NCBI GenBank assembly: GCA_024762925.1
Contig: JANTGM010000027.1
Location: 1 to 61,122 of the forward strand
DNA length: 61,122 bases
Direction of reading: 5' to 3'
From: Kofleriaceae bacterium
Lineage (GTDB): Bacteria; Myxococcota_A; Polyangia; Haliangiales; Haliangiaceae
The position numbers were made by a program, and so were the translations under genes. Below, one piece after another: positions 49,323 through 54,082 of this stretch (positions are counted from its first letter, which is position 1; each line of letters starts with the position of its first letter). Below the pieces are notes generated by a model. That model saw only the letters and a list, made by a program, of their open reading frames with translations, did no database searches and was not told the DNA's origin.

Positions 49323-51536
49323 ATGACAAAGAAAGAAACCTACAGTGCACAGCGTCGCGGAGACCGTGGTGCCTATGAGCGCTACTTGCGCGGCATGGAC
49401 ACTTCCATGCGGCAGAAGGTTGCGCTAACGGCCGCGCATCTGCTGTCCGAGGGCAAGATTGCTGACATGGGCATGGGGTCGGGAACAGGAAGCGAAGCCC
49501 TTGCCGCACTCTACCCGGCCTTGGAAGTCGTGGGTGTGGATGTTGAGCCGACGATGGTTGAGCTTGCGCAGGAGCGCTACAATCTCGAGAACCTTTCGTT
49601 CGTTGTTGGCGATATCGCAAAGCCTGTGTTTCCCGAAGCGAGTCTCGACGGAATTCTTAACTCGTCAGTACTCCATCATGTGACCTCATTCAACGGATAC
49701 GCACCTGAGCGCGCATCAGAGGCACTTGAGACGCAAGCCAAACAGCTCACCGACCGAGGAATACTCATCGTTCGAGACTTCGTTGCGCCAGCAGATCAAA
49801 CCGTCCTACTCGATCTCCCCGACAATGACAGCGAGAGCTTTGCGGACCTAGCGACTGTCTCGACCGCAGCACTCTTTGAACGGTTTGCCAAGACGTATCG
49901 CCCCCTTTGCGATGCACCTGGCTTCGCCTACGAGATGGTCGAGTCGAGCGAGACCAAAGCTGGTTGGAAACGCTATCGGCTTGCCGCCCGTCACGCCGTG
50001 GAGTTCGTTCTTCGGAAAGACTATCGTCGCGATTGGGATAGCGAACTGCTAGAAGCCTACTTGTACTTCACCCAGCCCGAGTTTGAACAGAGCTATGCGG
50101 ATATGGGGCTGCGTGTTCTTGCCTCAACGTCGATCTGGAATCCGTGGATTGTCAGGAATCGGTTTGAAGGCAAGTTCGAGTGGCGCAACGAGCAAGGCGC
50201 GATGCTTGAGTTTCCGGCCACCAACTACATCATCGTCGGTGAGAAGGTCCCCGACAACGAAGGAGTTCGCTTCAAAGAGGGCAAGACGCAAGCCCCGACA
50301 GGGTTTCTCCAGCTCGAATACTATCGCCATCGCAAGACAGGCTCCGTGGTGGACTTGGTTCGTCGGCCAAATCGAACCTTGGACATCATCCCGTGGTTTG
50401 AGCTGGACGGTGACTGTTTTGTGCTTGCTAGAGCGAGCTACCCGCGGCCAATCATCTGTGCAGATACCCCAGAAACCGCGTCATTGGACCGACGGCACTC
50501 GGCTGGGTACGTTGTCGAACCGCTGGTGGTCGTGCAAACCGACAAGCCTATGGGAATGACGGTCGAAGAGACGCTGGCGCGCGATGCGGGAATCTCCAGT
50601 TCCCAGATTCGCGGATTCAGAAAAGGTAGTAGCTACTATCCATCCCCTGGAGGCATTCAAGAAGAGGTTCGGGCGTGCTTTGTAGAAATCGATCCAACCT
50701 TCAACCAGAAGCCATTGGACAATCAAACGGGCTTTACGACAGCTGGGCGCGTGTTGGCGATTGAAGCACAGCAGGTGCTCAGGGCATCACAGATTGGCGG
50801 GCTTCCGGATGCAAGGCTGGAATTGAACGCCTACGATTTGCTGCTCAGCCAAGGAAAGCTCTGTGGCCCGTGGCTTGGCGAGAAGATTGAGCTTCCCGAC
50901 TCCGAGTCGCCGAGTCAGCCTCTGGCTTCGCTTAGCGTTGAGCCGCGCGTCGCACGTCGCATCTTTGACAAGGCGGGTAGCGAGGACAGCAGTGGGTTTC
51001 TAACAATCGAATGTGCCGAGTTTGAAGAGCTCGATAGCATGAGAACTGTTCGGAGTAGGAAGACGTTGGAGTTCGTCGCTCCCAAGCCGCTCTCCCTCAA
51101 TACAATTGCAACCGCGCTACTTGCAAGGCAAGACGGCCGCGTTTGGATCGGGCTGGACGATGATGACCTACCTGCGGCACAAGGGTTTAGCGGCAATAGC
51201 GAGCTCTTCGTTGCGCCAGCATGGCGATTGCCAAAGACAGTTACGGCGTTCTCCCCCGCACAGCGGTGGATTCGAGAGCGACTCTCCGAAGAGTACGGAG
51301 TGCGTACGAAGGGAATTTGGCACTTAGGTGGTCCGTACTTTCCGAGCCTGGGGCTAACACCCGAAATCGTGCATCCTCTCGCAGTGCAAGTCACTAATAT
51401 CGAGCAAGCAAATCGAAGCCTCCGGTGGATCCCGCTCGACGAAGCAGTAGCGACGCGTGGTACCTTCAAGGATGGACATCTGCGCATTGTTTTGCAGCGT
51501 GCCGCCCACGCCCTTGGACTGATGTCAGAGGCTTAG
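49323..51536 (+). CDS. Methyltransferase / Nudix-like fusion protein
   Basis: 737 residues. Residues about 35-230 are a class I methyltransferase: IADMGMGSGTGSEALA (motif I), VVGVDVEPTMVELAQ, ILNSSVLHHVT and GILIVRDFVAP. Around 330-490 lies a Nudix-like fold: TVEETLARDAGISSSQIRG, SYYPSPGGIQEEVRACFVEI. The helix keeps the shape of the Nudix box but lacks its REUXEE acids, so hydrolysis is doubtful. A third beta-rich region (about 510-737) may be a second degenerate copy (AERLSEEYGVRTKGI-like, YFPSLGLTPEIVHPLAVQV). No ribosome site stands out, and the SNF2 gene is 66 nt upstream. Substrate unknown. Confidence 0.8.
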   Translation: MTKKETYSAQRRGDRGAYERYLRGMDTSMRQKVALTAAHLLSEGKIADMGMGSGTGSEALAALYPALEVVGVDVEPTMVELAQERYNLENLSFVVGDIAKPVFPEASLDGILNSSVLHHVTSFNGYAPERASEALETQAKQLTDRGILIVRDFVAPADQTVLLDLPDNDSESFADLATVSTAALFERFAKTYRPLCDAPGFAYEMVESSETKAGWKRYRLAARHAVEFVLRKDYRRDWDSELLEAYLYFTQPEFEQSYADMGLRVLASTSIWNPWIVRNRFEGKFEWRNEQGAMLEFPATNYIIVGEKVPDNEGVRFKEGKTQAPTGFLQLEYYRHRKTGSVVDLVRRPNRTLDIIPWFELDGDCFVLARASYPRPIICADTPETASLDRRHSAGYVVEPLVVVQTDKPMGMTVEETLARDAGISSSQIRGFRKGSSYYPSPGGIQEEVRACFVEIDPTFNQKPLDNQTGFTTAGRVLAIEAQQVLRASQIGGLPDARLELNAYDLLLSQGKLCGPWLGEKIELPDSESPSQPLASLSVEPRVARRIFDKAGSEDSSGFLTIECAEFEELDSMRTVRSRKTLEFVAPKPLSLNTIATALLARQDGRVWIGLDDDDLPAAQGFSGNSELFVAPAWRLPKTVTAFSPAQRWIRERLSEEYGVRTKGIWHLGGPYFPSLGLTPEIVHPLAVQVTNIEQANRSLRWIPLDEAVATRGTFKDGHLRIVLQRAAHALGLMSEA

Positions 51537-51572: not shown

Positions 51573-52004
51573 CTATCGTTTGTCTTGGTGGTAGGTAAGA
51601 GCCGCCTCAATACAACTACGGAGCGCTTTTTGCGGGATCGGCGCGTTAATGGGCATCACGATCGCGCGGTTTCCTTCGAAGTTTAGCGAGATACCTGCGG
51701 TTCGAAATTCCGAGATGAGCTTTGTGTTGCAGTTTAAGAAAACTGCGTAGTTTTCGGGTTGAGATGGGCGCCAACCGATTCGAATTGTCGAACCAGACTT
51801 GCTCTTCTCTGTTAGATACGAGACTTCCCCCCACTTGAGTGTCTCGGTGAGTTCGCCTACCCCTTTGAGGGCCGAAGCCGTTTCGAAGATGAGCGCACGC
51901 ACTGCAAGCAGCCGAGCACGAGCGTTGGTGGGGTAGTTCGCAAGCACCGATGCCACTGCGGCGTGCATATCATTCGTTCGTGATTTGTGGACCTTGCCCC
52001 CCAT
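51573..52004 (-). CDS. DUF1801 family protein
   Basis: 143 residues from ATG 52004 (ATG 52019 also possible); the longer open frame upstream overlaps the divergent selenoprotein gene and is not credible. LLAVRALIFETASALKGVGE, TLKWGEVSYLTEKSKSGSTIRIGW and EGNRAIVMPINAPIPQKALR follow the DUF1801/YdhG-like pattern, small cytoplasmic proteins of unknown role. It is divergent from the selenoprotein pair, about 110 nt apart. Confidence 0.82.
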   Translation of the reverse strand: MGGKVHKSRTNDMHAAVASVLANYPTNARARLLAVRALIFETASALKGVGELTETLKWGEVSYLTEKSKSGSTIRIGWRPSQPENYAVFLNCNTKLISEFRTAGISLNFEGNRAIVMPINAPIPQKALRSCIEAALTYHQDKR

Positions 52005-52117
52005 GGGAGCAGGCAGCATACGACGACTGTTGTCACTTTTGGAATGATCTTGGTCAGGTTGGATTCCTGACGCGCTAGCTACGGGTCCGACATCCGTCGC
52101 GAGAGCCCGCAAAACGC

Positions 52118-53425
52118 ATGTATACTGCGCATGTGCTGATACTTCTGCGCGTGGTTTTCGTCTTGCTCTTTGCTGTTGTAGGCATGACTTCCGCAAGAGC
52201 TCAGTGCACAACCTGAGTGAACCCCGCGCTCCCGGGCGGGGCGCCAGGCGATGCAGATGGCGGTGAACCCAATGCCTGGTTGGTTAGCGGTCGGCTAAGC
52301 TATGCAGGAATTCCCTACAAGAATCTGCAGCAAGGCACCAAACAAGGACCAAACCCCGATCAGTTGCGCATCGATGTGCATCTAGCAACTGCGGAGGTCG
52401 CGTTAACTGCTCCGTGGCAGACAAAGCTTAGCCTTCAATTGCCTGGTGGACGCTTGGCTACAAGTACTCTGGCCGAGAGTCGAACTGATAGCGATCTTGG
52501 AGATGCAGAACTGCGCCTGAGGCAATCGCTACCCTCATGGAAATCGCTTCGGCTCGATATTGGCGCCGGAGTCGTTCTCGCGACGGGGCCCTACGTTCCA
52601 AAGAGTGGGGCTGCAAACCTGCCGCCAGAGGCAAGTTACCTCACCTTGGGGAGAGGGGTGACTTGGGCAATTGGAGAACTGCAAGTAAGTACTTCTCTTA
52701 GTGATGACATTTCGGCCTATGGTGAGTTTTCTACAAGAACACCTTTGGGAAAGACAGAGGACGACTTTGACTGGGGAACCGAAGCGCGCGGGGTGATAGG
52801 TGGCAGGCTGCGTCTCCCCCTCCGTCTGTCTGCGCTGGCGATCGGTGAATGGCAATGGCGTGGCTCGGCAACAGAGCCCGATCCGTTTGTCGGTGGGCGA
52901 ATTGAGACTGCCAATGCAGGTGGTCACTGGGTGACACTGATGCCAGCTCTTGGCTATGAAGTCACCAGCGCGTTCTCGGTTCTTGCAGGAGCCCGCATTC
53001 TGGCCTACTCGGATGTTCGCGGAAACCAATTGGTACCAAGCGTAGGTGGTTTTCTCTCACTCAATGGCCGTTGGTCATTTGGCATAGGGAAAACTCGCAA
53101 GTCAATCTCGAATGCGGACGGGCAAGTGAGCTCCGCCAGCCCTGTTCTCGGAACAATCACCATCGTAGATTATTGGGCAACGTGGTGTGCGCCGTGTAAG
53201 GAAATTGCTGCGCTCCTCGAAGAGGCAAAAGGCGATTGGGACAGTGTGACGATTGTGAAAGTCGATGCAAGCGCCTATCCCGATAGCGCAATTGCGCTGC
53301 CCAACGGCGCTGAGGGCCTTCCAGTCATTGAGATCTTTGATGAGTCCGGAAATAGCAAACACGTTCTCATAGGGCCTGATGCTCTAAAGGTTGTAGACAT
53401 CGTAAATGCGATGCGAGATAACTAA
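52118..53425 (+). CDS. Predicted selenoprotein: CxxU motif, beta-rich domain and thioredoxin domain
   Basis: 435 residues if the in-frame TGA at 52214-52216 is read as selenocysteine (residue 33). Start ATG 52118; GTG 52133 is possible. Residues 6-28 are a clear signal peptide (VLILLRVVFVLLFAVVG, then MTSARA), giving a mature end QCTTU, i.e. Cys30-x-x-Sec33. Residues about 50-310 are beta-rich (barrel-like strands such as LRLDIGAGVVLATG, GGRLRLPLRLSALAIG). A thioredoxin fold follows with WCAPC at 356-360 and VDYWATW before it. A SECIS-like hairpin sits 10 nt after the TGA. If the TGA were a stop, the remaining frame from GTG 52217 would lack any export signal. Expected site: periplasm or outer membrane. 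Sec incorporation is inferred. Confidence 0.8.
52226..52244 (+). promoter_or_regulatory. SECIS-like hairpin after TGA of first selenoprotein gene
   Basis: GCGC (52226-52229), bulged T, CCC (52231-52233), loop GGGC, GGG (52238-52240), GCGC (52241-52244). This is a stem with one unpaired U three base pairs below a four-base loop rich in G, the same geometry as the E. coli fdhF SECIS upper stem. It starts 9 nt after the TGA. An alternative pairing CCCCGC/GCGGGG is also possible. Confidence 0.6.
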
Positions 53426-53443
53426 CTTCTAACAAGGAATACG

Positions 53444-54082
53444 ATGAATCCCCTCAAACGCTCGAGTCGAAATCTCGGAACCCTCAGCACGCTTTCATTG
53501 GCGCTCGTGACAACCCTCGTCGTTGGCTGTTCTTCAGACGATGAGGCCCCACCGGCAGATGCAACGGCAGGCAACGGCTCCGCGGATGCGGCCCTCGGCT
53601 CGCCCGATGCCATGCCATCTGGTCCGGATGCCATGCAAGCGGCCGTGCAGATTCCCACTTGGACGCTTGAAGACATTCAACCCGCGAGTCCCAAGTCTGG
53701 CCAGGTCTACGGTCTCAGTGAATTTACCGGCAGAATTCTCGTTGTTGTGTTGGTTGATGGGTTTTGAGGAAGTTGCCGGTCCCAGGTTGGGGCTGCAAAC
53801 ACACTCGTCGATGAACTCAGGAATGATGGCTACCCTGTAGACTTTGTTTTGCTCTCGGATGCCAACGCCAGCGACTACGTCACCAGAACCGAGATGCCAA
53901 TTTTCGAGGAAGATCGCAGCGGGCGGCCAGCGTGGGGGGAAATGGATTCGGGGGCGGTCAAGCACGACACATTCGTTTTCACGGATACTGGTGAGAGAAT
54001 CCTCTTTTGGGACACAAGTGCAAATAGCCTAGCGAACTGGTCAGATGATATTCGCGCCGCCGTTGAGTCCCAAGGCCAGTAG
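53444..54082 (+). CDS. Predicted selenoprotein: thioredoxin-like lipoprotein with UGSC motif
   Basis: 212 residues if the TGA at 53765-53767 is selenocysteine (residue 108). AAGGA precedes the ATG and the gene lies 18 nt after its partner. MNPLKRSSRN... ends in lipobox VVGC (Cys29), then an Asp/Ala/Gly-rich linker. The thioredoxin-like domain begins near 72 (WTLEDIQPASPKSGQ, YGLSEFTGRILVVVLVDGF) and is followed directly by U108-G-S-C111 and RSQVGAANTLVDELRNDG, as in TlpA/AhpC-type proteins with CxxC at this place. The frame continues to DIRAAVESQGQ without other stops. Treated as two ORFs (53444-53767 and 53849-54082), both halves lack sense. UGSC-motif proteins have been described among predicted bacterial selenoproteins; kinship is not tested here. 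Confidence 0.87.
53773..53798 (+). promoter_or_regulatory. SECIS-like hairpin after TGA of second selenoprotein gene
   Basis: TTGC (53773-53776), bulged C77, GGTCCC (53778-53783), loop AGGTT (53784-53788), GGGGCT (53789-53794), GCAA (53795-53798). Ten pairs including two G-T, with a five-base loop holding G at positions 2-3. It starts 5 nt after the TGA, where bacterial SECIS elements lie. Pairing worked out by hand. Confidence 0.65.

Follow-up and report, generated by a model that had tools for sequence, protein, structure and literature searches.

The stretch analysed here (the window) is the 61,122-nucleotide (nt) contig JANTGM010000027.1 of a Kofleriaceae bacterium (GCA_024762925.1), part of a 6.8 Mb draft genome (G000) that is 98% complete and whose closest named relatives in a contig scan were Kofleriaceae and Deltaproteobacteria/Myxococcales bins (Myxococcota). 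It carries two neighbouring genes, here called A and B, which very probably encode two selenoproteins that are exported to the outer envelope and conserved as a unit. The single in-frame TGA of gene A is codon 33, in the context SARAQ-C-T-T-U-VNP, and that of gene B is codon 108, in the context DGF-U-G-S-C-RSQ, where U stands for selenocysteine (Sec). The original prediction, made from the letters of the window, had described same-strand genes 18 nt apart with one TGA each, both in redox motifs, and had expected automatic annotation to shorten them; coordinates and direct translation agree on every point. Standard open reading frame (ORF) calling starts A at the GTG at 52217, directly after the TGA, leaving 402 residues and no signal peptide, and ends B at its TGA after 107 residues. 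Coordinates of all features are collected in Table 1.

Table 1. Features of the A-B locus and of the A paralogue in the same genome (aa, amino acids).
Feature	Position	Strand	Basis or detail
Gene A	52118..53425	+	ATG 52118 to TAA 53425; 435 aa with Sec33; open under TGA=Sec
A signal peptide (predicted), residues 1-28, ending SARA before Q	52118..52201	+	Sequence pattern; hydrophobic segment ending A-Q conserved in alignment
A redox motif C-T-T-U	52205..52216	+	Sec codon 52214-52216; QCTTU/QCTTC alignment
A SECIS-like hairpin, CGCTCC-CGGGC-GGGGCG	52227..52243	+	Stem begins 11 nt past TGA
A outer-membrane beta-barrel (predicted), residues 54-321, 12 strands	52277..53080	+	AlphaFold2 model, structure match
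A thioredoxin domain, residues 345-434	53150..53419	+	PF00085; active site CAPC 53186-53197
Shine-Dalgarno-like AAGGA ahead of gene B	53434..53438	+	Direct sequence
Gene B	53444..54082	+	ATG 53444 to TAG 54082; 212 aa with Sec108; open under TGA=Sec
B lipobox V-V-G-C29	53519..53530	+	Sequence; C29 invariant in alignment A5
B active site U-G-S-C	53765..53776	+	Sec codon 53765-53767; invariant redox column
B SECIS-like hairpin, GGTCCC-AGGTT-GGGGCT	53778..53794	+	Stem begins 11 nt past TGA
A paralogue in the window genome	L080:1316-2884 (G000 contig C49)	-	N-terminal UGGU, His-rich linker, thioredoxin WCGPC

Homologues of both proteins were sought in 290 genomes of the class. Ten further genomes of the same family each contain a full-length A with exactly one TGA, and the search with B returned the same genomes, again with one TGA in the gene (in G117 B is cut by a contig end, with the TGA still inside); with the window's own genome, 11 family genomes thus hold the A-B pair with one TGA per gene. 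Cys forms of both proteins came from one genome, G281 (Labilithrix), and A and close B co-occur in an identical set of 12 of the 290 genomes. Additional loci came from scanning named genome contigs, namely Archangium (L095), Myxococcaceae (L096, where the motif search had missed a B that profile search and direct translation found beside A), Myxococcus (L100), Labilithrix (L103, the locus already met as G281) and further Myxococcales. The Myxococcaceae-type loci L095, L096 and L100 are Sec in both genes. Taken together, A and B stand side by side in no fewer than 15 myxobacterial genomes besides that of the window, of which 13 have TGA in both genes and two have Cys in both, the concordance of the Sec/Cys state resting on these two Cys/Cys cases (L099 and L103).

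Homologues run straight through both TGAs, and the column holds a TGA or a Cys codon (TGC/TGT). For A, all 11 TGA-bearing family members read QCTTU and the Labilithrix form reads QCTTC, Q29, C30 and C/U33 being invariant in alignment A4; more distant A proteins have CATU (L097, L102) or CVSC (L098, L101). For B, the column is Sec or Cys only in 26 sequences, and redox positions 108 and 111 are both invariant. Protein identity among relatives is 47-51% downstream of the TGA in those A proteins that keep it and 52-60% after the TGA in B, nearly as high as the identity ahead of it. The window genome itself encodes SelA (579.5 bits), SelB (331.8 bits), SelD (373.7 bits) and one tRNA-Sec that passes the Rfam cut-off at 67.6 bits and that ARAGORN, too, identifies as a tRNA-SeC with anticodon TCA (UCA); SelD (L017) is itself a selenoprotein whose TGA is read through in EHGGUAAK (GGUxxK). 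The alignment and the search for selA, selB, selC and selD, both proposed as checks with the original prediction, therefore came out on its side, and neither of the outcomes named there as refuting it was observed. In the class, tRNA-Sec was found in 10 of the 11 genomes with the TGA pair versus 125 of 280, the lone exception being a 73% complete draft, and it is missing from the Labilithrix genome with its Cys/Cys pair. Since the genomes of the Cys forms L099, L098 and L101 do carry tRNA-Sec, the Cys state does not always reflect loss of the machinery.

By comparison of sequences, then, both TGAs are shown to be read as selenocysteine, in all likelihood through the genome's own set of SelA, SelB, SelD and tRNA-Sec. 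If they were instead true stops, produced by nonsense mutation or separating short genes, A would begin at the GTG past its TGA and B would end at its TGA. A GTG does follow the A TGA in most Kofleriaceae members, and TGA is the ordinary stop of other long ORFs in the window, but this explanation is extremely improbable: across 14 genomes, whose proteins are about 50% identical, both genes retain the TGA, which makes two independent nonsense mutations as unlikely as had been supposed and led us to reject a pseudogene, Cys is the sole alternative in the column, the signal peptide of A precedes the TGA, and the hairpin behind the TGA of B is under selection (see below). Genome-wide reassignment of TGA to another amino acid (as in codes 4 or 25), which in-frame TGAs in several genes might suggest, can be dismissed, given that TGA serves as the stop codon of at least six long ORFs in the window, the Sec machinery is present, and the column elsewhere holds Cys, not Trp or Gly.

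A hairpin with the geometry of a selenocysteine insertion sequence (SECIS) had been described within 10 nt of each TGA, and the two found there share one layout, with a 10-nt spacer, a stem of 6 base pairs (bp) and a 5-nt loop. The bacterial SECIS (bSECIS) model calls for a loop of 3-9 nt, a stem of 4-16 bp, a G in the first two loop positions, a loop 16-37 nt after the UGA and a minimum free energy of at most -7.5 (PMC13188914). Both hairpins conform to this, A with loop CGGGC at 16 nt and -13.4, and B with loop AGGTT at 16 nt and -12.3 (energies of nt 7-36 past the TGA). As proof, the mere presence of a hairpin was rejected: within the window, 285 of 1716 TGA triplets (17%) are followed by a SECIS-like hairpin of at least 5 bp. 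For this reason we tested for selection on the hairpins, and it is the comparative evidence that decides the Sec reading. Scanned against Rfam at gathering thresholds, the window gave no match, and so no SECIS hit.

For the selection test codons were recoded synonymously 1000 times per gene; the resulting statistics come from related sequences and are not independent trials. In B, the hairpin energy of 21 Sec members lay below that of the recoded sequences (mean z -1.76, 11 of 21 below p 0.05) and their stems averaged 6.29 bp against an expected 2.87; for 12 Cys members the mean z was -0.06 (0 of 12 below p 0.05) and the stem 2.17 bp against 2.63, the hairpin being absent in Cys homologues. 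Compensatory substitutions have altered two of the B stem's pairs (12-26 from GC to AT, 15-23 from CG to GC), and at codon 7 the rare GCT is used in 14 of the 16 sequences with Ala. The stem of A measures 6.38 bp against 4.19 expected, its six pairs are intact in 11 of 11 Sec homologues and broken in Cys homologues, Gly codon 8 is the rare GGA in 13 of 16 sequences, and CTC and CCG are kept in 16 of 16. Comparison thus shows each TGA to be directed, as far as sequence can tell, by its own downstream hairpin. Two B homologues (L064 and L065) have lost the usual stem and carry a new one, approximately CGTCC-AGG-TTGGACG, about nine nt farther downstream, so that the SECIS seems to have moved within the gene.

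Protein A is predicted to combine an outer-membrane barrel with a thioredoxin domain. Export had been proposed for it, and the signal peptide is visible in the sequence; cleavage would occur at a signal peptidase I site, placing C-T-T-U at the predicted mature N-terminus, ahead of the barrel. The AlphaFold2 model has a predicted local distance difference test score (pLDDT) of 83, mostly about 90 in the barrel, whose 12 strands have the COG4313 / Phenol_MetA_deg fold: the best match is the COG4313 channel 4rl8 (Z 25.7, root-mean-square deviation 2.4, 254 of 268 residues; Foldseek E 1.8e-10), and the PcoB copper barrel is among the others (Z 13.9). In Pfam, A itself has no match to PF13557 (Phenol_MetA_deg), and two of its relatives match weakly (best 0.0014). 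The C-terminal domain scores above the PF00085 cut-off (45.4 bits, E 8.7e-12) with a CxxC site, CAPC, and its profile matches solved thioredoxins with E values down to 3.9e-16. For A, NCBIfam returned nothing but generic thioredoxin-type matches, and no matching barrel family. The thioredoxin-like domain foreseen for A is therefore real, although the Sec motif lies outside it, in front of a barrel that the original prediction had missed. A is likely a COG4313-type outer-membrane barrel with both termini, CTTU and thioredoxin, on the periplasmic side.

Protein B consists of a lipobox (VVGC29), which is visible in the sequence and agrees with the predicted export, a low-complexity linker and, in the model, a thioredoxin-fold domain at residues 70-210. 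The evidence for this domain is weak by sequence (Redoxin at E 3.8e-5, below the Pfam cut-off; AhpC-TSA also weak; no match in a sequence search of solved structures) and clear by structure, with the DsbE-like 3gl3 (Z 16.7), Bcp (Z 16.4) and ResA (Z 15.8) effectively tied; the leading fold matches also include GPx and Bcp/PrxQ. Residues 71-196 match NCBIfam NF053656 (34.6 bits, E 1.6e-8) under its curated cut-off of 100 bits, and B is by this sequence measure related to that family but not a member. The peroxiredoxin pattern PxxxTxxC/U is not seen in B, where VVVLVDGF precedes Sec108; the TlpA/ResA combination of fold (Z 15-17) and two redox residues in CxxC spacing is, the UxxC being invariant. 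We infer that B is an outer-envelope lipoprotein whose TlpA/ResA- or peroxiredoxin-like domain would carry a Sec-x-x-Cys site. Distant Sec/Cys homologues of B from other families (L131, L135, L136 and also L076) have as neighbour a diheme cytochrome c, accompanied by rhodanese either as a domain or as an adjacent gene. These neighbourhoods are possibly another envelope module for sulfur/selenium redox chemistry, and this placement suggests that redoxins of the B type trade electrons with differing partners in the envelope.

The view of A and B as one exported unit draws further on the arrangement of the genes. In seven relatives the stop codon of A and the start codon of B share a 4-nt ATGA, an arrangement suggestive of translational coupling, and no third gene is common to the A-B loci among eight 15-kb neighbourhoods compared. 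Several results count against the reading developed so far. The A relatives L098, L101 and L102, which have Sec or Cys at about 30% identity, lack an adjoining B by motif search. The free energy of the A hairpin is not below that of synonymous recoding; this test gives no signal, since the Pro-Ala-Leu-Pro-Gly-Gly-Ala segment is rich in GC however it is coded, so that the evidence for A consists of its codon choice and of the pairs that Cys homologues have lost. Finally, the N-terminal segment of A that contains CTTU has a pLDDT below 50, residues 22-46 being mostly unresolved in the model, which for that reason cannot place CTTU in or near the barrel.

A sister family carries two selenocysteines. 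Besides the A paralogue of the window genome (Table 1), UxxU barrel-thioredoxin relatives (UTAU, UGGU, UAAU, UAGU) were found in at least seven other genomes (loci L081, L115-L119 and L123); both Sec lie at the mature N-terminus, and a linker rich in His precedes the thioredoxin domain. All eight genomes with a confirmed UxxU motif contain tRNA-Sec, and one hairpin resembling CCTTCC-GGTC-GGAGGG follows the second TGA. One sister protein exceeds the PF13557 cut-off (36 bits vs 22), and for the family NCBIfam gave nothing but generic thioredoxin matches. Two selenocysteines three residues apart in an outer-membrane protein are striking by themselves.

The localisation signals and domains of the two proteins, the conservation of the pair and the matching Sec/Cys state of its genes together point to a selenium-dependent thiol-disulfide system of the cell envelope, much as the original prediction had ventured, whose chemistry could be disulfide reduction, peroxide reduction or metal handling. 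We tentatively put forward, at somewhat less than an even chance, that a selenol/thiol relay operates on the inner face of the outer membrane, its three redox centres being CxxU and CxxC of A and UxxC of B. Electrons would pass, in one direction or the other, between a selenylsulfide at the N-terminus of A and both B and A's thioredoxin domain, and the selenylsulfide in turn would reduce a substrate arriving through the barrel or repair the barrel's own plug. In the solved COG4313 channel the barrel is plugged from the periplasmic side by roughly the first 14 residues of the chain, which fold into it (PMC4493636). The CTTU of A lies just ahead of the segment aligned to the 4rl8 plug (model residue 35 corresponds to chain residue 1), and from this adjacency one could imagine, although we consider it doubtful, a redox-gated channel, in which a selenylsulfide in or at the pore, set by the protein's own thioredoxin domain and B, switches the channel or acts on cargo. 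Were this so, the sister family would do likewise with two selenocysteines (UxxU).

Another division of labour would make B a selenium-dependent peroxidase of the outer membrane, similar to peroxiredoxin or GPx, and A the carrier of reductant: Sec108 would reduce peroxides, Cys111 would resolve, and the thioredoxin domain and CTTU of A would recycle the enzyme. The weak Redoxin and AhpC-TSA matches of B fit such a role, as do GPx and Bcp/PrxQ among its top folds (with Bcp tied with the DsbE-like protein and ResA) and an invariant K173 near FVxD, which probably sits about at the cis-Pro position of TlpA-like proteins. We nonetheless regard a peroxidase as rather unlikely, in view of the missing PxxxTxxC around Sec108, the thioredoxin-like spacing of UxxC, and the name that NCBIfam gives to the nearest family, a thioredoxin fold and not a peroxidase. 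Unlikely, too, is a role of the pair in handling metals or metalloids (Cu, Hg, Se or As species), in which CxxU/UxxU would bind or reduce them and the barrel would serve as an export or uptake channel. The His-rich linkers of the UxxU sister family and the PcoB fold match are in keeping with it, but A has no such linker, no conserved metal gene stands beside A-B or beside the sister barrels, and no convincing metal or transport gene is common to the sister loci.

The COG4313 / Phenol_MetA_deg channels (Pput2725, 4rl8; SphA) share with A a 12-stranded barrel and a periplasmic N-terminus (PMC4493636); A differs from them in its added N-terminal CxxU and C-terminal thioredoxin, and its Pfam match is marginal. 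B resembles TlpA, ResA and DsbE in fold and envelope location, but Sec comes first in its active site, there is no WCxxC, and the cis-Pro position appears to be replaced. With NF053656 (redoxin_TUGYCR, the 'TUGYCR motif thioredoxin fold (seleno)protein') it has in common the thioredoxin fold and Sec/Cys in UxxC(R/Q), but its motif is GFUxxCR and its score is well under the cut-off. B is paired with an outer-membrane barrel-thioredoxin; three of its distant homologues adjoin cytochrome c or rhodanese genes instead. In the searched parts of the 2026 selenoprotein catalogue, precedent for barrel selenoproteins of the outer membrane exists in NF049945 (TonB-dependent receptor FCYXU-type) and NF041027 (MtrB/PioB-type barrel), which are set apart from A by their listing under other families and not by sequence comparison (PMC13188914). 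The multi-selenoprotein operons described there (grdA-grdB, SAO and Tso) are, like A-B, adjacent selenoprotein genes thought to act together, but they belong to other families and none pairs an outer-membrane channel with a lipoprotein (PMC13188914). Neither the A barrel family nor the A-B pair was found in those parts of the catalogue (PMC13188914), deep-Sep makes no mention of 'Myxococc-', and a literature search for selenoproteins under 'myxobacteria' or 'Myxococcota' gave no match.

The pair adds to the myxobacterial selenoproteome a barrel-thioredoxin architecture for which the searched parts of the catalogue gave no entry, along with an operon whose products are both exported selenoproteins, and it ties selenium to the outer membrane. 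Because its members are prone to misannotation, A being started past its TGA without a signal peptide and B being cut in half, the family is likely hidden in databases. It raises the question of whether a selenylsulfide can work at an outer-membrane pore, and from which electron source.

As for the neighbouring genes, window positions 49323-51536 (+) encode a 737-residue protein whose long C-terminal part is without a Pfam match and whose N-terminal part is a methyltransferase domain. Between it and gene A lies a DUF1801 ORF on the opposite strand (51573-52211, -), which in its longest form runs into the beginning of gene A but probably starts at a more internal position.
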